Source: a bacterium
GTDB lineage: Bacteria > Patescibacteriota > CPR2 > UBA1875 > JAJYID01
Length of the DNA: 52,121 bases
Assembly: GCA_021796415.1 (NCBI GenBank)
Contig: JAJYJC010000005.1
Location: forward strand, 1-52,121
Direction: 5' to 3'
The notes beneath the pieces are model-generated. The model ran no database searches and was not told where the DNA came from. It worked only from the letters and a program-made list of their open reading frames with translations. Of this stretch, positions 2,132 through 51,357 are shown one piece after another. How positions within the stretch are numbered: position 1 is the stretch's first letter; each line of letters starts with the position of its first letter. A program made the position numbers and the translations under genes.

Positions 2132-2171
2132 TCATGTCAACACCTGGTGTCGACACCAGGTGTTGACATGA
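2132..2171. repeat. 40-bp perfect palindrome upstream of RAYT transposase
   Basis: tcatgtcaacacctggtgtcgacaccaggtgttgacatga is its own reverse complement. Confidence 0.95.
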
Positions 2172-2197
2172 AAAACTAGGAAGTTTAATATCGGTGT

Positions 2198-2866
2198 ATG
2201 CCTTATAGAAAAACAAATTTTGTTAATGGTAATTTTTATCATGTTATCAATCGTGGTGTAAACCATGATGCGATTTTTAAGGATGAAAAAGATTACCGGC
2301 GTTTTTTAGACTCAACTAATTTTTCAAGATTTGATTCAGAAGTTCAGTTCTCCTATTTTAATAGGATTTCCGAAAAAGCAAGGGGTGAAATGTTGGAGAG
2401 ATTTGAAAAAACAAAAGGTCCTTTAGTTGATATTTTGGTTTTTAGTTTGATGCCAAACCATTACCATTACCTAATGAGACAACTTTTGGATGGTGGAGTG
2501 CAAACGTTTATGAGGAATTTTCAGAATAGCTATGCGAAATTCTTTAATATCAAACACGAAAGAATCGGCCCTTTGTTTCAATCAGCTTTTAGGGCTACAC
2601 CAATTGAAAGCGAGGAACAGCTAGTTCACACCTCAAGATATATTCATTTAAACCAAGTCTCCTCGTCACTAGTGGAAATAACAGATCTGGAAAAATATCC
2701 TTGGACTTCTTTTCCTGAATATTTAGGCAAAAAAAGATATAACTTCGTAAATACCAAACCAATATTAGAATTCTTTGATGGCGATAGGATTAAATATAAA
2801 AAATTTGTTTTTGAGCAAGCTGATAATCAGAAAGAATTGCAAATTATAAAAAATCAATTAAACTAA
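2198..2866 (+). mobile_element. REP-associated tyrosine transposase (RAYT, Y1_Tnp-like)
   Basis: NGNFYHVINRGVNHDAIFKDEKDYRRFL, LMPNHYHYLMRQ (HUH), RYIHLNQV; bracketed by palindromes. Confidence 0.93.
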
Positions 2867-2871
2867 TACTG

Positions 2872-2903
2872 ACACCTGGTGTCGACACCAGGTGTTGACA
2901 TGA
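2872..2903. repeat. Second copy of the RAYT palindrome, left arm truncated
   Basis: acacctggtgtcgacaccaggtgttgacatga matches the last 32 bp of the 2132-2171 palindrome. Confidence 0.93.
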
Positions 2904-37171: not shown

Positions 37172-37216
37172 GTCATTCTGGCCTGCCTTGCCGGCAGGCA
37201 GGCCCGTCCAGAATCG
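37172..37216. repeat. REP-like repeat with gcctgccttgccggcaggcaggc core
   Basis: Same family as 39937 copy inside murT. Confidence 0.85.
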
Positions 37217-37327
37217 GTTGAACAATGGCTTTGGTTGTGCTAATATGTTTTTAACAGAAGGAGGGCAAAGTTTTACTCCTTCTTTTGCGTCCTTAATCAG
37301 CCTAATTTTCCTGGAAAAGGAGGAGTA

Positions 37328-38936: not shown

Positions 38937-40451
38937 TTAAGTCCAGTAATTATCTAATATTTTTTCTTTGACCAGTAAATTTCTCAGCTCAAGCATGGCG
39001 GTGTAGGTGGGTAAAATATAGAGCTTCTCGTTCGGGCCGGTTTTTTTAATGGCCGTATCCAGCGCTTCAGAAATGTCTTTTTTTACCGTAATTATTTTTG
39101 ACGACACGTCGGCATATTTTAGCCTCAACCTGAGGTCTTCACTGCGGATGCCGCTGACGACGATGTTTGAGAAATAATTTTTGAAAACCTCGTACTCGCA
39201 GTCCCAAATCCAGGAAATGTCGGTGCCGTCGGCGAAGTTGTCGTTTAAAATCAAAAGCGCAGTTTTGGGTTTTCGGGTGGATGAGATTGCCTCTACAACT
39301 TGATTGAAGCCGGTTGGATTCTTAACTAAGTGGATAATGGCTTTTTTGCCGTTTTTCTCAAATGATTCCATACGGCCGAAAGCCGGCTTCAAGTGAGACA
39401 GGGTTTTAGCGATGGCGGCGCTTTTGACTTCCAGAAATGATGCTGCGGCCGTTGCTGCTAAAGCGTTGTAAATGTTGTAAAGTCCGACCATCGGCAGCTT
39501 CAAGTCGAAACTTTCGCGCTTGATAATCATTTTTGCGGTGATGCTTCCCGCTTCCAACCGGATATCCTTGGCGGAAATCTGAGGGTTTGGGCGCTTGAAT
39601 CCGCAGTTTGGACATTCATATACACCGATATGGCCGTAATATCTTCTCGCGTAATTTAGCTCGCTGCCGCAAACGAGGCAGTCCTTTGAGTCAATGGCAA
39701 GCTCGGAACTGGCCGAAATTCGCGTGTCTTGAACGCCGAAGTACAAGACATTGTCCTTGCCTTTTCCAAGCGAGGCAACCATGGGGTCGTCGGCGTTTAA
39801 GATCAGCTTGGCATCCGGCGCATCCTTGATCGCTTTCTCAATAATTGCGGCCGTTTTGTCGACCTCGCCGTAGCGGTCAAGCTGATCACGGAATATATTT
39901 GTAACCATAATCGCCTTGATTTGACTCTTGTTTTTCGTCATTCTGGCCTGCCTTGCCGGCAGGCAGGCTTGTCCAGAATCGGAATTTTTCTGGATTTCCG
40001 CCGGATGTTTATCCGACCTTTGGTGGGCGGGAATGACAGTGGATGGCCCATTTTGAATTTTAAATTTTAAATTTTTAATTAATTCCGGCATCGTTGCTTC
40101 GTCAACCTCATAAACGCCGATATCGGCTTTTAAACTGCCGAAAATACTAGCACGAGATATTAAGGCTGAGGCGATGCCGCGAGAAAGATTTGACCCGCCG
40201 GAGTTATTTAGGACTTTCATTCCAGCATTCTCCAGAATTTCAGTAATCATCTTTGCGGTTGTTGTTTTGCCGTTAGTGCCGGTAACCAAAATGACGCCTT
40301 TTGCCAAATTTTGGGTCAGCTTTGCATTAATTTCAGGATCAATCCGTTGGGCGATAACGCCGGGCAAAGCTCCGCCGCCGCCACGCCCAAAAGCGCGCGA
40401 CCAAAATCCCGCCTGCTTGGCAGCAAGAATAGCCAAATACTTTTTATCCAT
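38937..40451 (-). CDS. murT: MurT-like Mur ligase with repeat-derived insertion
   Basis: VTGTNGKTTTAKMI; LVCGSELNYARRYYGHIGVYECPNCGFKRP; VKNPTGFNQV. Confidence 0.9.
   Translation of the reverse strand: MDKKYLAILAAKQAGFWSRAFGRGGGGALPGVIAQRIDPEINAKLTQNLAKGVILVTGTNGKTTTAKMITEILENAGMKVLNNSGGSNLSRGIASALISRASIFGSLKADIGVYEVDEATMPELIKNLKFKIQNGPSTVIPAHQRSDKHPAEIQKNSDSGQACLPARQARMTKNKSQIKAIMVTNIFRDQLDRYGEVDKTAAIIEKAIKDAPDAKLILNADDPMVASLGKGKDNVLYFGVQDTRISASSELAIDSKDCLVCGSELNYARRYYGHIGVYECPNCGFKRPNPQISAKDIRLEAGSITAKMIIKRESFDLKLPMVGLYNIYNALAATAAASFLEVKSAAIAKTLSHLKPAFGRMESFEKNGKKAIIHLVKNPTGFNQVVEAISSTRKPKTALLILNDNFADGTDISWIWDCEYEVFKNYFSNIVVSGIRSEDLRLRLKYADVSSKIITVKKDISEALDTAIKKTGPNEKLYILPTYTAMLELRNLLVKEKILDNYWT
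39937..40037. repeat. REP-like composite inside murT
   Basis: gtcattctggcctgccttgccggcaggcaggcttgtccagaatc...gccggatgtttatccgacctttggtgggcgggaatgac. Confidence 0.85.
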
Positions 40452-40637: not shown

Positions 40638-40671
40638 TATTGGTACACTAAACTAGTTTAGTGTACCAATA
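40638..40671. repeat. 34-bp perfect palindrome
   Basis: tattggtacactaaactagtttagtgtaccaata. Confidence 0.95.
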
Positions 40672-40749: not shown

Positions 40750-41745
40750 TTAGGTGCCCAAGAAATTTTTGACTGCTTTTTCTGCTTCGGATTTATTCTT
40801 TATCCAAGTCACATCTTTATTGCGACGAAGCCAGGTAAGCTGGCGTTTGGCAAGGTTGCGGTCGCCTTGTTTAAACTTCTCAGTCGCTTCTTTCAAACTA
40901 ATTTTTCCAGTTAGATATAGTCCAACTTGTTTGTAGCCTATACCGTTCATGCCAGGATCACCCAAAGAATATTTTTCGAGTAATTTTTTCACCTCGTCCA
41001 CAAATCCTTCCTTCATCCAGACATCGGCACGTTTGTTTATTCTGTCGTACAATTGCTTGCGGTCATTTCCCTTTGTCATTCTGGCTTGTCCAGAATCTGC
41101 TTTATTTTTCTGGATTCCCGCCTGCGCGGGAATGACAGAGGAGGGAGATTTCATCGCTTTAGCTCCAAAGCCTTCACAAAGAGCTAAATACAAAACATTT
41201 TTTGGTAAGGATTTCTTCTTTTCGCTGGCTTTTGGCGATCCGGTCTCATAGAAAATCTCCAAGGCTCTGATTAATCGGTGCCGGTTGTGGGAATCGATCA
41301 TTTTGGCTGTTCGGGAGTCGGCTTTTTGAAGCTCGGAAAAAATTTCCTCGGTTGATTTTTGGGCCAATCGCTCCCGCAGTTTCTGATTCGGCTTTGTATC
41401 GGACATTTCATAATTATAAATAACGGCATCGATATACATCATCGTTCCGCCGGCAATGATAGGGATTTTCCCGCGGCCGGCAATTTCCTTAATTTTTTCT
41501 TCTGCCAGCTTCTTGTACTCGGCTACCGAAAATTGCTCGTCGGGATCGGCAATGTCGAAAAGGTGATGCGGGATGCCTTCACGCTCTTCCGTTGTCGGTT
41601 TGCCGGTGCCCAGATCCATCTCTCTGTAAATGCTCCGGGAGTCGGCATTTATGACTTCGCCGCCGAGCTTCTTTGCCAAGTGAACCGCAAGCGCAGTCTT
41701 TCCGCTGGCCGTTGGTCCGGCAATGACTATAATTGGGTTCTTCAT
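40750..41745 (-). CDS. miaA: tRNA dimethylallyltransferase MiaA with repeat-derived insertion
   Basis: IVIAGPTASGKTALAVHLAKKLGGEVINADSRSIYREMDLGTGKPT; NRHRLIRALEIFYETG. Confidence 0.95.
   Translation of the reverse strand: MKNPIIVIAGPTASGKTALAVHLAKKLGGEVINADSRSIYREMDLGTGKPTTEEREGIPHHLFDIADPDEQFSVAEYKKLAEEKIKEIAGRGKIPIIAGGTMMYIDAVIYNYEMSDTKPNQKLRERLAQKSTEEIFSELQKADSRTAKMIDSHNRHRLIRALEIFYETGSPKASEKKKSLPKNVLYLALCEGFGAKAMKSPSSVIPAQAGIQKNKADSGQARMTKGNDRKQLYDRINKRADVWMKEGFVDEVKKLLEKYSLGDPGMNGIGYKQVGLYLTGKISLKEATEKFKQGDRNLAKRQLTWLRRNKDVTWIKNKSEAEKAVKNFLGT
41075..41136. repeat. REP-like repeat inside miaA
   Basis: gtcattctggcttgtccagaatc...ggattcccgcctgcgcgggaatgac. Confidence 0.88.
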
Positions 41746-41831: not shown

Positions 41832-42395
41832 ATGAATGAAACTGGAGATGTAAATAGAGGTCCTAAAGCGGAAGAATCAATAGTCGAGGGAAATTCGAGA
41901 CACAAAGAAATGGTAAGAAGATTTGGCCAGGAAGGGATTGGTGAGAAACCAGTTACTGAAAAGCCTGACTTTACACTGAAAGATCAGCAAGGTATAGAAG
42001 AAATACGTTCAACATTTAACAGTCCAGTTGAGACTTCGGAAGGTAAGCAGGCAAGACAAATTCGAGAAGGTGACGATAATGTTGCAAGAGAGATAGCTAG
42101 GAATAAGGTGCGAAGAGAGGCCGAGAGAAATAAAAAAGGCATTATAAGAGCTGCTGTTTTAACTCCGTTGATCACGATTGGCTCCTTCATTGCAGTACAT
42201 ATTGGTTTGGGCAGACAGGAGAAAATAGATGACCAAAAGGAAGCAGGATATGAACAGGCAGTTTTCACCGATCAACAGAATGATATGAGCCTGCAAGTTC
42301 ATGTTGGCGAAGGTGGTAATGTAAATGCAACAGTTTCAGATGGTACTGAATATTCAACCGATGCTGCTAGCCAGGAAAGCAATCAAGGAAATTAG
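41832..42395 (+). CDS. Hypothetical single-TM protein
   Basis: Charged N-terminus, one TM (GIIRAAVLTPLITIGSFIAVHIGLG). Confidence 0.6.
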   Translation: MNETGDVNRGPKAEESIVEGNSRHKEMVRRFGQEGIGEKPVTEKPDFTLKDQQGIEEIRSTFNSPVETSEGKQARQIREGDDNVAREIARNKVRREAERNKKGIIRAAVLTPLITIGSFIAVHIGLGRQEKIDDQKEAGYEQAVFTDQQNDMSLQVHVGEGGNVNATVSDGTEYSTDAASQESNQGN

Positions 42396-43981
42396 ACAAC
42401 TCTTCCTTTTAGCATCCAAGCTTCAGAGCTAACAATCTCAACATCGACAAACTGGCCTAAGAGGCTAGTTTGTTTTCCGAGGTTCAACCTCACGTGAGGT
42501 TGAACCTCATTTTGCAACTCGACTATTTTATAATTATCGGTGCGGCCGTAGTATTTGCCGTTTTTCTCAGAGTCTATAAGCACCTTCATGATCATGCCGA
42601 CATACTTTTTGTTTTCTTTCTCAAGGTATTTCTTTAAAAGATTTGTTATTTCCTGCCATCTTTTTTCTTTTACTTTTTGAGGCACATTATCTTCCATTTT
42701 TGCTGCTCTCGTGCCTGATCGAGGAGAAAATTTGCCGATGTAAATCATTTCAAAACCGACATCGCGCACTACTTTCTTTGTCTCGTTAAAATCTTCTTCC
42801 GTCTCGCCCGGGAAGCCAACAATTACGTCAGTGGTAATGGCGACCTCAGGTATCGCTTTCTTAATTTTATTAACTAAACTAAAGTAGTTTTTCTGGGTGT
42901 AATGGCGATTCATAGCTTTCAAGATTTTATCGCTGCCGGACTGCAGGGGCAGGTGGATGTAATGAGGAAAATGCTCAGTTTTCGGAATAGCTTTGATTAG
43001 CTCGTCTGAGAAGTCTTTTGGGTGGTTAGAGTAGAAATAAACTCGGTATGTGCCGGGGATTTTATCAATTTTTTTAAGAAGTTTAGTGAAATCGGTATTA
43101 AGTGTTTTGCATTGAGAATCTGACCCAACATTGTCATTCTGAGCGACTTCACATAGTGACGAGTCGAAGAATCTCTTTTCTTCCTCATTTTTCTTTGAGA
43201 GATCCTTCGTTTCCTCAGGATTACTGCAAACATTATTCTTTTGTTTTTCAGTCCTTTTGTCCTTTTGTCCTTGGTAATTATGCGTATGGACAAAATCTGA
43301 GCCATAGGAATTCACATTTTGGCCAAGGAGGGTTATTTCTTTGTAGCCGGCAGACACCAGATTGCGGATCTCAGACAAAATCTCCGGCATTGGCCGCGAA
43401 ACTTCCCGCCCGCGAGTGTAGGGGACGGCGCAGTAGGTGCAAAAATTATTGCAGCCGGTAGAGATGGGCACGTAGGCAGAGAACGAAGATTCTCTTTTTG
43501 GAGTAATACTGAAATAATCTTCGTAATTTTCAATTTCCAATTCACAATTTTCAATCGAATCCCAATTTTCAATTTCCAAATCAGTTTTTTCGGGATTGGC
43601 TTTTTTGGGGTTTTGGTATTGTTTAGGATTTAGACTTTTGGATTTAGTGCTTGATTCCAAAAATTTTCTCAATTTTGGGAGATCTTTTATATCAAAAATC
43701 AGGTCAAAAAATTTGCTCATGGTAACTCTATCTTTATCTAAGACACAGCCGGAGAGAATAGTGACCAAACCTCCATTTTCCTTGCGTTTTTGCCACTCGC
43801 GAGCTTTGCCGTAAATGCGATCGATGGCGTGCTGGCGGACGCTGCAGGCGACAATAACTACAAAATCAGCATCAGATTCAGACGTCGTTTGTGTATGGCC
43901 GGCATCTTCAAAAACAGATGCGATCCTTTCCGCATCCGAGTGGTTCATAGCGCAACCCAAGGCCCAAATATAGTACTTCAT
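42392..43981 (-). CDS. miaB: tRNA-2-methylthio-N6-dimethylallyladenosine synthase MiaB with several insertions
   Basis: ALGCAMNHSDAERIA; ISTGCNNFCTYCAVPYTRGRE; LLGQNVNSYG; HLPLQSGSDKILKAMNRHYT. Confidence 0.94.
   Translation of the reverse strand: MKYYIWALGCAMNHSDAERIASVFEDAGHTQTTSESDADFVVIVACSVRQHAIDRIYGKAREWQKRKENGGLVTILSGCVLDKDRVTMSKFFDLIFDIKDLPKLRKFLESSTKSKSLNPKQYQNPKKANPEKTDLEIENWDSIENCELEIENYEDYFSITPKRESSFSAYVPISTGCNNFCTYCAVPYTRGREVSRPMPEILSEIRNLVSAGYKEITLLGQNVNSYGSDFVHTHNYQGQKDKRTEKQKNNVCSNPEETKDLSKKNEEEKRFFDSSLCEVAQNDNVGSDSQCKTLNTDFTKLLKKIDKIPGTYRVYFYSNHPKDFSDELIKAIPKTEHFPHYIHLPLQSGSDKILKAMNRHYTQKNYFSLVNKIKKAIPEVAITTDVIVGFPGETEEDFNETKKVVRDVGFEMIYIGKFSPRSGTRAAKMEDNVPQKVKEKRWQEITNLLKKYLEKENKKYVGMIMKVLIDSEKNGKYYGRTDNYKIVELQNEVQPHVRLNLGKQTSLLGQFVDVEIVSSEAWMLKGRVV
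42479..42508. repeat. 30-bp perfect palindrome inside miaB 3' end
   Basis: gaggttcaacctcacgtgaggttgaacctc. Confidence 0.95.
43133..43174. repeat. REP-like repeat (gtcattctgagcg...gagtcgaagaatctc) inside miaB
   Basis: Dispersed-repeat-like sequence in the coding region. Confidence 0.75.
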
Positions 43982-51281: not shown

Positions 51282-51301
51282 TTTTCCTCCTTTCGATTTT
51301 C

Positions 51302-51348
51302 TGGATTCCCGCCGGATGTTTACCCGACTTTGGCGGGCGGGAATGACA
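51302..51348. repeat. REP-like repeat, near-identical to the right half of the murT copy
   Basis: tggattcccgccggatgtttacccgactttggcgggcgggaatgacag. Confidence 0.85.
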
Positions 51349-51357
51349 GGGTAATTT

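Follow-up and report, generated by a model that had tools for sequence, protein, structure and literature searches.

Palindromic repeats that lie in frame within genes are best known from Rickettsia, and to our knowledge it is unresolved how such elements enter genes and persist in them. The window analysed here, a stretch of 52,121 nucleotides from a bacterium of the Patescibacteriota, raises this question at murT, encoding a subunit of the lipid II isoglutaminyl synthase. An earlier note on this DNA reported a REP-like composite repeat inserted in frame in this gene, and the peptide and positions it gave proved exact. What is this repeat, how did it come to be translated, if it is, and why has it been retained?

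The in-frame insert of murT

The murT gene (38937..40451, minus strand) is an intact ORF of 504 aa. Its in-frame insert comprises 48 residues (MurT residues 130-177; 39921..40064, minus strand) and is flanked by EATMPELIKNLK and IKAIMVTNIFRDQLDRYGEVD. Within it, a TGG-type REP (39937..39979, plus strand) with the tag GTC at 39937 is followed by an inverted CCC-type REP with an extended loop (39994..40037, minus strand), whose tag GTC is located at 40037, and together they form a heterodimer with the tags outward. The loop of the first repeat contains a nested palindrome of 21 nt (about 39948-39968), and the protein consequently reads SGQA-CLPARQA-RMT in place of the usual SGQARMT. An AT-rich block (40051..40084) adjoins the REP pair and lies partly within the insert.

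The same repeat had been noticed at 37172 and 51302, and it does recur at both places, with one half of the murT composite at each. The insert is 95.7% identical to positions 37172-37217 over 46 nt and 92.6% identical to positions 51297-51349 over 54 nt. The copy of the first REP (37172..37214, plus strand) is probably intergenic. This also holds for the copy of the second REP (51305..51347, minus strand), which lies at the extreme N-terminus of an ORF called mechanically. As these copies represent different halves, neither locus has the whole composite.

In three genomes of sister genera (G003, G004 and G006) MurT has a length of 456-461 aa, and EATMPE..VK is directly joined to KAIVITN. The insert is also missing in relatives more distant than these. 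Since the sister-genus proteins are continuous across the site, the insert is foreign to murT, and the possibility allowed for in the earlier note, that relatives have the same length, does not apply. A second one, that murT is a pseudogene, can be rejected as well: besides the intact ORF, the protein gave Pfam matches to MurT_C and Mur_ligase_M, and the residues of the P-loop and the Cys4 site are conserved.

An AlphaFold model of MurT from a seven-sequence alignment, of moderate overall quality (mean pLDDT 70), predicts the insert to be disordered. Residues 130-174 have a pLDDT below 50 and are placed between a helix (121-128) and a strand (178-183). The remainder of the model shows the MurT fold, with TM-scores of 0.82-0.85, normalised by target length, against 9SQ9, 9SQJ and 6FQB chains.

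Features and distribution of the repeat family

The sequence GTCATTCTGG (at most one mismatch) is present in 20 copies in the window compared to 3.0 expected (0/100 shuffles), and TGTCATTCCCGC in 82 copies in the 903-kb genome (G000) compared to 0 for the reversed pattern. A search by the rule GTCATTC, hairpin, GAAT, in which the GTC tag and the AT start of the stem are built into the pattern, detected 200 REP singlets in sampled stretches covering 488 kb of this genome, and 0 with a scrambled tag. These stretches were picked around pattern matches, so that the density is biased, the fraction within genes not obviously.

The stems are of the types CCCGC, TGG, CCGGA and TGAAC and follow one plan, with a T/C-GTC tag, a stem of 7-8 bp starting with AT and a loop of 3-5 nt. 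GTC is preceded by T in 137 and by C in 47 of the 200 REPs. Stems comprise 8 bp in 100/200 (60+26+14) and 7 bp in 46 more, and loops are mostly of 4 nt (60) or 5 nt (46+26). A minority has loops of about 25 nt containing a nested palindrome, as seen in murT. The 3-nt tail is CCA in 62/200 and CTA in 64/200, a small departure from the published CCA. Close pairs are tags-outward in 36 of 42 cases (2 tags-inward, 4 tandem) with spacers of 3-27 nt. By these features the repeats largely fit the CGTC/TGTC-tagged REP superfamily. Of 15 AT-rich blocks, 6 had a REP-like tag at a distance of at most 80 bp, compared to about 14% for random positions. Such blocks occur together with REPs in the UvrB, Elp3-like, UvrD, SMC-like and hydrogenase genes. 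The proximity is only suggestive of the block as an obligate partner of the REPs.

The three sampled genomes contain 65-200 REPs in 295-488 kb each. With genic status judged from coding composition, 41/200 REPs lie within coding ORFs in G000 (27 genes), 14/65 in the sample of the congener G002 and 30/77 in that of G003. Coding sequence makes up 74-78% of the sampled DNA, indicating that genes are avoided by the REPs, yet are far from free of them. The suggestion of an RPE-like process in this lineage is thereby borne out: the family has many copies, both intergenic and in frame within conserved genes that stay open.

Twenty-two REP-bearing host genes of G000 could be named via Pfam, and in several of them the domain match crosses the REP. 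They encode MurT, MiaA, an EF-Tu-type GTPase, YchF, a TlyA-like methyltransferase, uracil-DNA glycosylase, PolA, the large subunit of a NiFe hydrogenase, an Elp3-like radical SAM-GNAT protein, two UvrD helicases, QueA, RNase H, PrmC, an SMC-like ATPase, UvrB, a class IV aminotransferase, Dus, GatB, TGT, prephenate dehydratase and a D-Ala-D-Ala carboxypeptidase. In the latter the domain match does not include the REP, which could be located 5' of the true start. As a plain tally, the REP-bearing genes largely belong to DNA repair (UvrB, UvrD, PolA, UDG) and to tRNA modification (MiaA, MiaB, TGT, QueA, Dus). One UvrD helicase gene (L111 183-3599) carries an intein (Hint) domain in addition to an in-frame REP dimer.

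Reading frame, re-use of sites and origin of the inserts

To assess frame-keeping without restriction to open ORFs, the sequence around each of the 157 REP loci was searched with proteins of relatives. At 21 loci a single relative protein spanned the REP, in every case in one continuous frame with no split between frames; at a chance of one third each, the probability of this is about 1e-10. Such conservation of the frame argues for translation of the murT insert. The choice among frames is biased, too, with one or two of them predominating. Read antisense, CCC-type REPs give DSRLRGND-like peptides in 22 cases and IPASAGMT-like ones in 3, and TGG-type REPs give DSGQARMT-like peptides in 26 and FWTSQND-like ones in 3, despite both antisense frames being open in both types. 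Hydrophilicity alone is rejected as the cause, as the commonest sense reading, VIPAQAGI, is hydrophobic. The bias may reflect properties of the peptide or the phase of insertion.

Two neighbouring genes, overlooked in the earlier note, have in-frame inserts as well. The gene miaA, adjacent to murT (40750..41745, minus strand, 331 aa), contains an insert of 36 residues (about 41071-41178) with a REP heterodimer (41075..41136), which is missing in the congener G002. A repeat-bearing insert in miaB (42392..43981, minus strand, 529 aa) includes a palindromic GTCATTC-tagged element (43133..43174). Between murT and miaA there is also a perfect 30-bp palindrome, TTGGTACACTAAACTAGTTTAGTGTACCAA (window 40640-40669).

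The sites are re-used. In murT of G002 (JAJYQQ010000035.1) the same AT-rich stub, NLQFTIQNG, is followed by quite different repeats. The G002 protein has a second insert near residue 230, where a further genome (G005) has a repeat of its own. One site in miaB is occupied in three genomes by different, partly related elements.

Very probably, the inserts are selfish REP composites for which tolerance is limited to in-frame positions in permissive loops, and more repeats accrete at these loops. The unit is a CGTC/TGTC-tagged REP composite next to an AT-rich block, in murT the inverted tags-outward heterodimer, and would multiply in this genome as selfish DNA of a non-autonomous kind. An insertion would be purged where it causes a frameshift, introduces a stop or strikes the core of a protein, and would survive where it lies in a surface loop and leaves the frame open and unshifted; we infer that it is tolerance which allows this survival. 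MurT would in this way have gained a disordered loop of 48 residues between a helix and a strand of its central Mur-ligase domain. A site that tolerates extra sequence may then receive later repeats in or beside the first.

Mobilisation would occur in trans, possibly by a HuH/Y1 enzyme. The genome has three Y1/RAYT-like genes. One of them (window 2198-2866, plus strand) is bracketed by two CACCTGGTGTCGACACCAGGTG palindromes (window 2132-2895), the only copies of this palindrome in the 488 kb sampled. Around another Y1 gene (L079 8210-8967) there are four related TGCAAGGGTCTGACCCTTGCA-type palindromes. The two Y1 genes with nearby hairpins are bracketed by private palindromes and not by GTCATTC REPs, and no GTCATTC REP bracket was found in the Y1 flanks searched in G000, G002 and G003. 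A RAYT as proven mobiliser is therefore rejected, the flanks of Y1 genes having private palindromes or none. Among 59 genomes, the abundance of REPs goes along with the presence of Y1 genes (p = 0.0007). Beyond the class of the window this association is not convincing, so that shared ancestry may account for it.

Alternatively it might be that the composites are targeted in a homing-like manner and repeatedly enter a given gene at one and the same codon, or pass between genera into it. We consider this unlikely, although the re-use of the murT and miaB sites and, in particular, uvrB speak for it. G000 (L118, 1172-3340) and G003 (L153, 5398-7569), which belong to different genera, share in uvrB a unit of 44 codons that is inserted at an identical codon. 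The DNA of the two units is 94% identical with sharp edges, and identity at third positions amounts to 83-100% in most of the insert compared to about 45% in the flanks, which are saturated at synonymous sites. UvrB of the congener G002, as well as of G004 and G006, lacks the insert. G001, a third genome of this genus, has a match to uvrB (L166) that ends at residue 417, beside the insertion site, possibly because the contig breaks within the repeat. Neutral drift under plain vertical descent fails to explain that some shared inserts are far more similar than the synonymous sites of their hosts. Repeated insertion at the same site, passage from genus to genus, conversion between copies, precise loss in some lineages and constraint on the DNA itself are all candidates.

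Other shared inserts point away from targeting. In the Elp3-like gene the distribution resembles that of uvrB, but the order of its several chained units is identical in the two genera, in favour of a single ancestral insertion and thus of common ancestry plus loss. For the hydrogenase insert common to G000 and G002, identity is only 78%. Furthermore, a target motif or an enzyme was looked for and none was found. Five filled and empty sites, aligned as nucleotides, proved too divergent for a target-site duplication to be read; the start AATGAT and end AATGAC of the uvrB insert are only suggestive of one. For UvrD, a motif search gave no clear indication of a site common to genera. There is a small chance that the uvrB unit, and perhaps that of the Elp3-like gene, is targeted and represents a protein-coding counterpart of a homing element, in contrast to selfish DNA that inserts at random and is then filtered by selection.

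It is rather improbable that the inserts have been recruited, the added peptides being functional in regulation or interaction and held by selection. The strong bias to few peptides would fit this, as would the UvrB and Elp3-like inserts, which are open in two genera with dN < dS. The host proteins, however, are unrelated, close relatives do without the inserts, and the insert in MurT is predicted to be disordered. In the hydrogenase, dN is 0.25 in the insert compared to 0.07 in the flanks, as an unconstrained loop should behave.

Still less probable is that the insert is spliced out after transcription or skipped by ribosomes, leaving a protein of normal length. Its strong hairpins might serve such a removal, which however would not demand the frame-keeping seen at all homology-spanned loci. 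A pseudogene, a misassembly or natural variation in MurT length has next to no probability: the assembly is fragmented (49 contigs), but catalytic and zinc-site residues are conserved in an intact ORF, and chance or assembly artefact is rejected by the high copy number of the repeat and by comparable inserts in independent genomes.

Comparison with known systems

Selfish REP composites tolerated at permissive loops, our preferred explanation, would provide small genomes with a route to lengthen conserved proteins stepwise. Peptides such as DSRLRGND, DSGQARMT and VIPAQAGIQ in proteins of such genomes are to be regarded as derived from repeats and not as domains. With three sampled genomes, dozens of decorated genes and filled as well as empty sites in close relatives, the enzyme that moves the repeats, the targeting of insertion and the importance of the added peptide have become testable. 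A literature search of incomplete coverage yielded no report of in-frame REPs in candidate-phyla bacteria.

The Rickettsia palindromic elements are likewise palindromic selfish repeats, present in frame in unrelated conserved genes that are kept open. In-frame palindromic repeats are unusually frequent here, with identical sites in use among several related genera. RPE-1 is described as a longer palindromic insertion, whereas the unit described here is a composite of several short repeats.

The CGTC REP superfamily is characterised by a terminal CGTC tag, often altered to TGTC or CCTC, a stem of 8-9 bp starting with AT, a loop of 4-5 nt and a 3-nt tail fitting CCA; HH (tags-outward) dimers predominate, and no associated transposase was found (PMC3733652). 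Our repeats share the tag, the AT stem, the 4-5-nt loop and the tags-outward dimers, and in part the CCA-like tail. They, too, lack an associated transposase as judged from the Y1 genes examined, and have in-frame intragenic copies often located in DNA repair genes. They differ in that stems of 7 bp with 5-nt loops and CTA tails are also common, in the palindromes nested in loops, in the recurring AT-rich partner block and in the larger fraction within genes. As Neisseria dRS3 and RPE-4 and RPE-6 of Rickettsia conorii were assigned to the CGTC REPs (PMC3733652), the term RPE-like chosen in the earlier note is correct, and since our repeats agree with most of the published description, the likeness goes beyond analogy. 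To RPE-4 and RPE-6, which have another host, it runs via that published assignment.

In-frame REPs as such were already reported, including those in uvrA, uvrB, uvrD and DNA polymerase I genes (PMC3733652). New are the host lineage, a bacterium with a reduced genome whose size and gene content suggest the candidate phyla radiation, the high genic fraction, the accretion of composites at permissive sites and the presence of near-identical DNA at the same codon across genera. The GTAG REPs associated with REPIN/RAYT systems are also short tagged hairpins in inverted pairs, and Y1 genes are present in our genome as well, but the tag here is TGTC/CGTC instead of GTAG and the Y1 genes are not linked to the repeats. 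In P. fluorescens SBW25 only 14 of 1,067 REP 16-mers overlap genes (PMC3116915), compared to 20-39% of the REPs in our samples.
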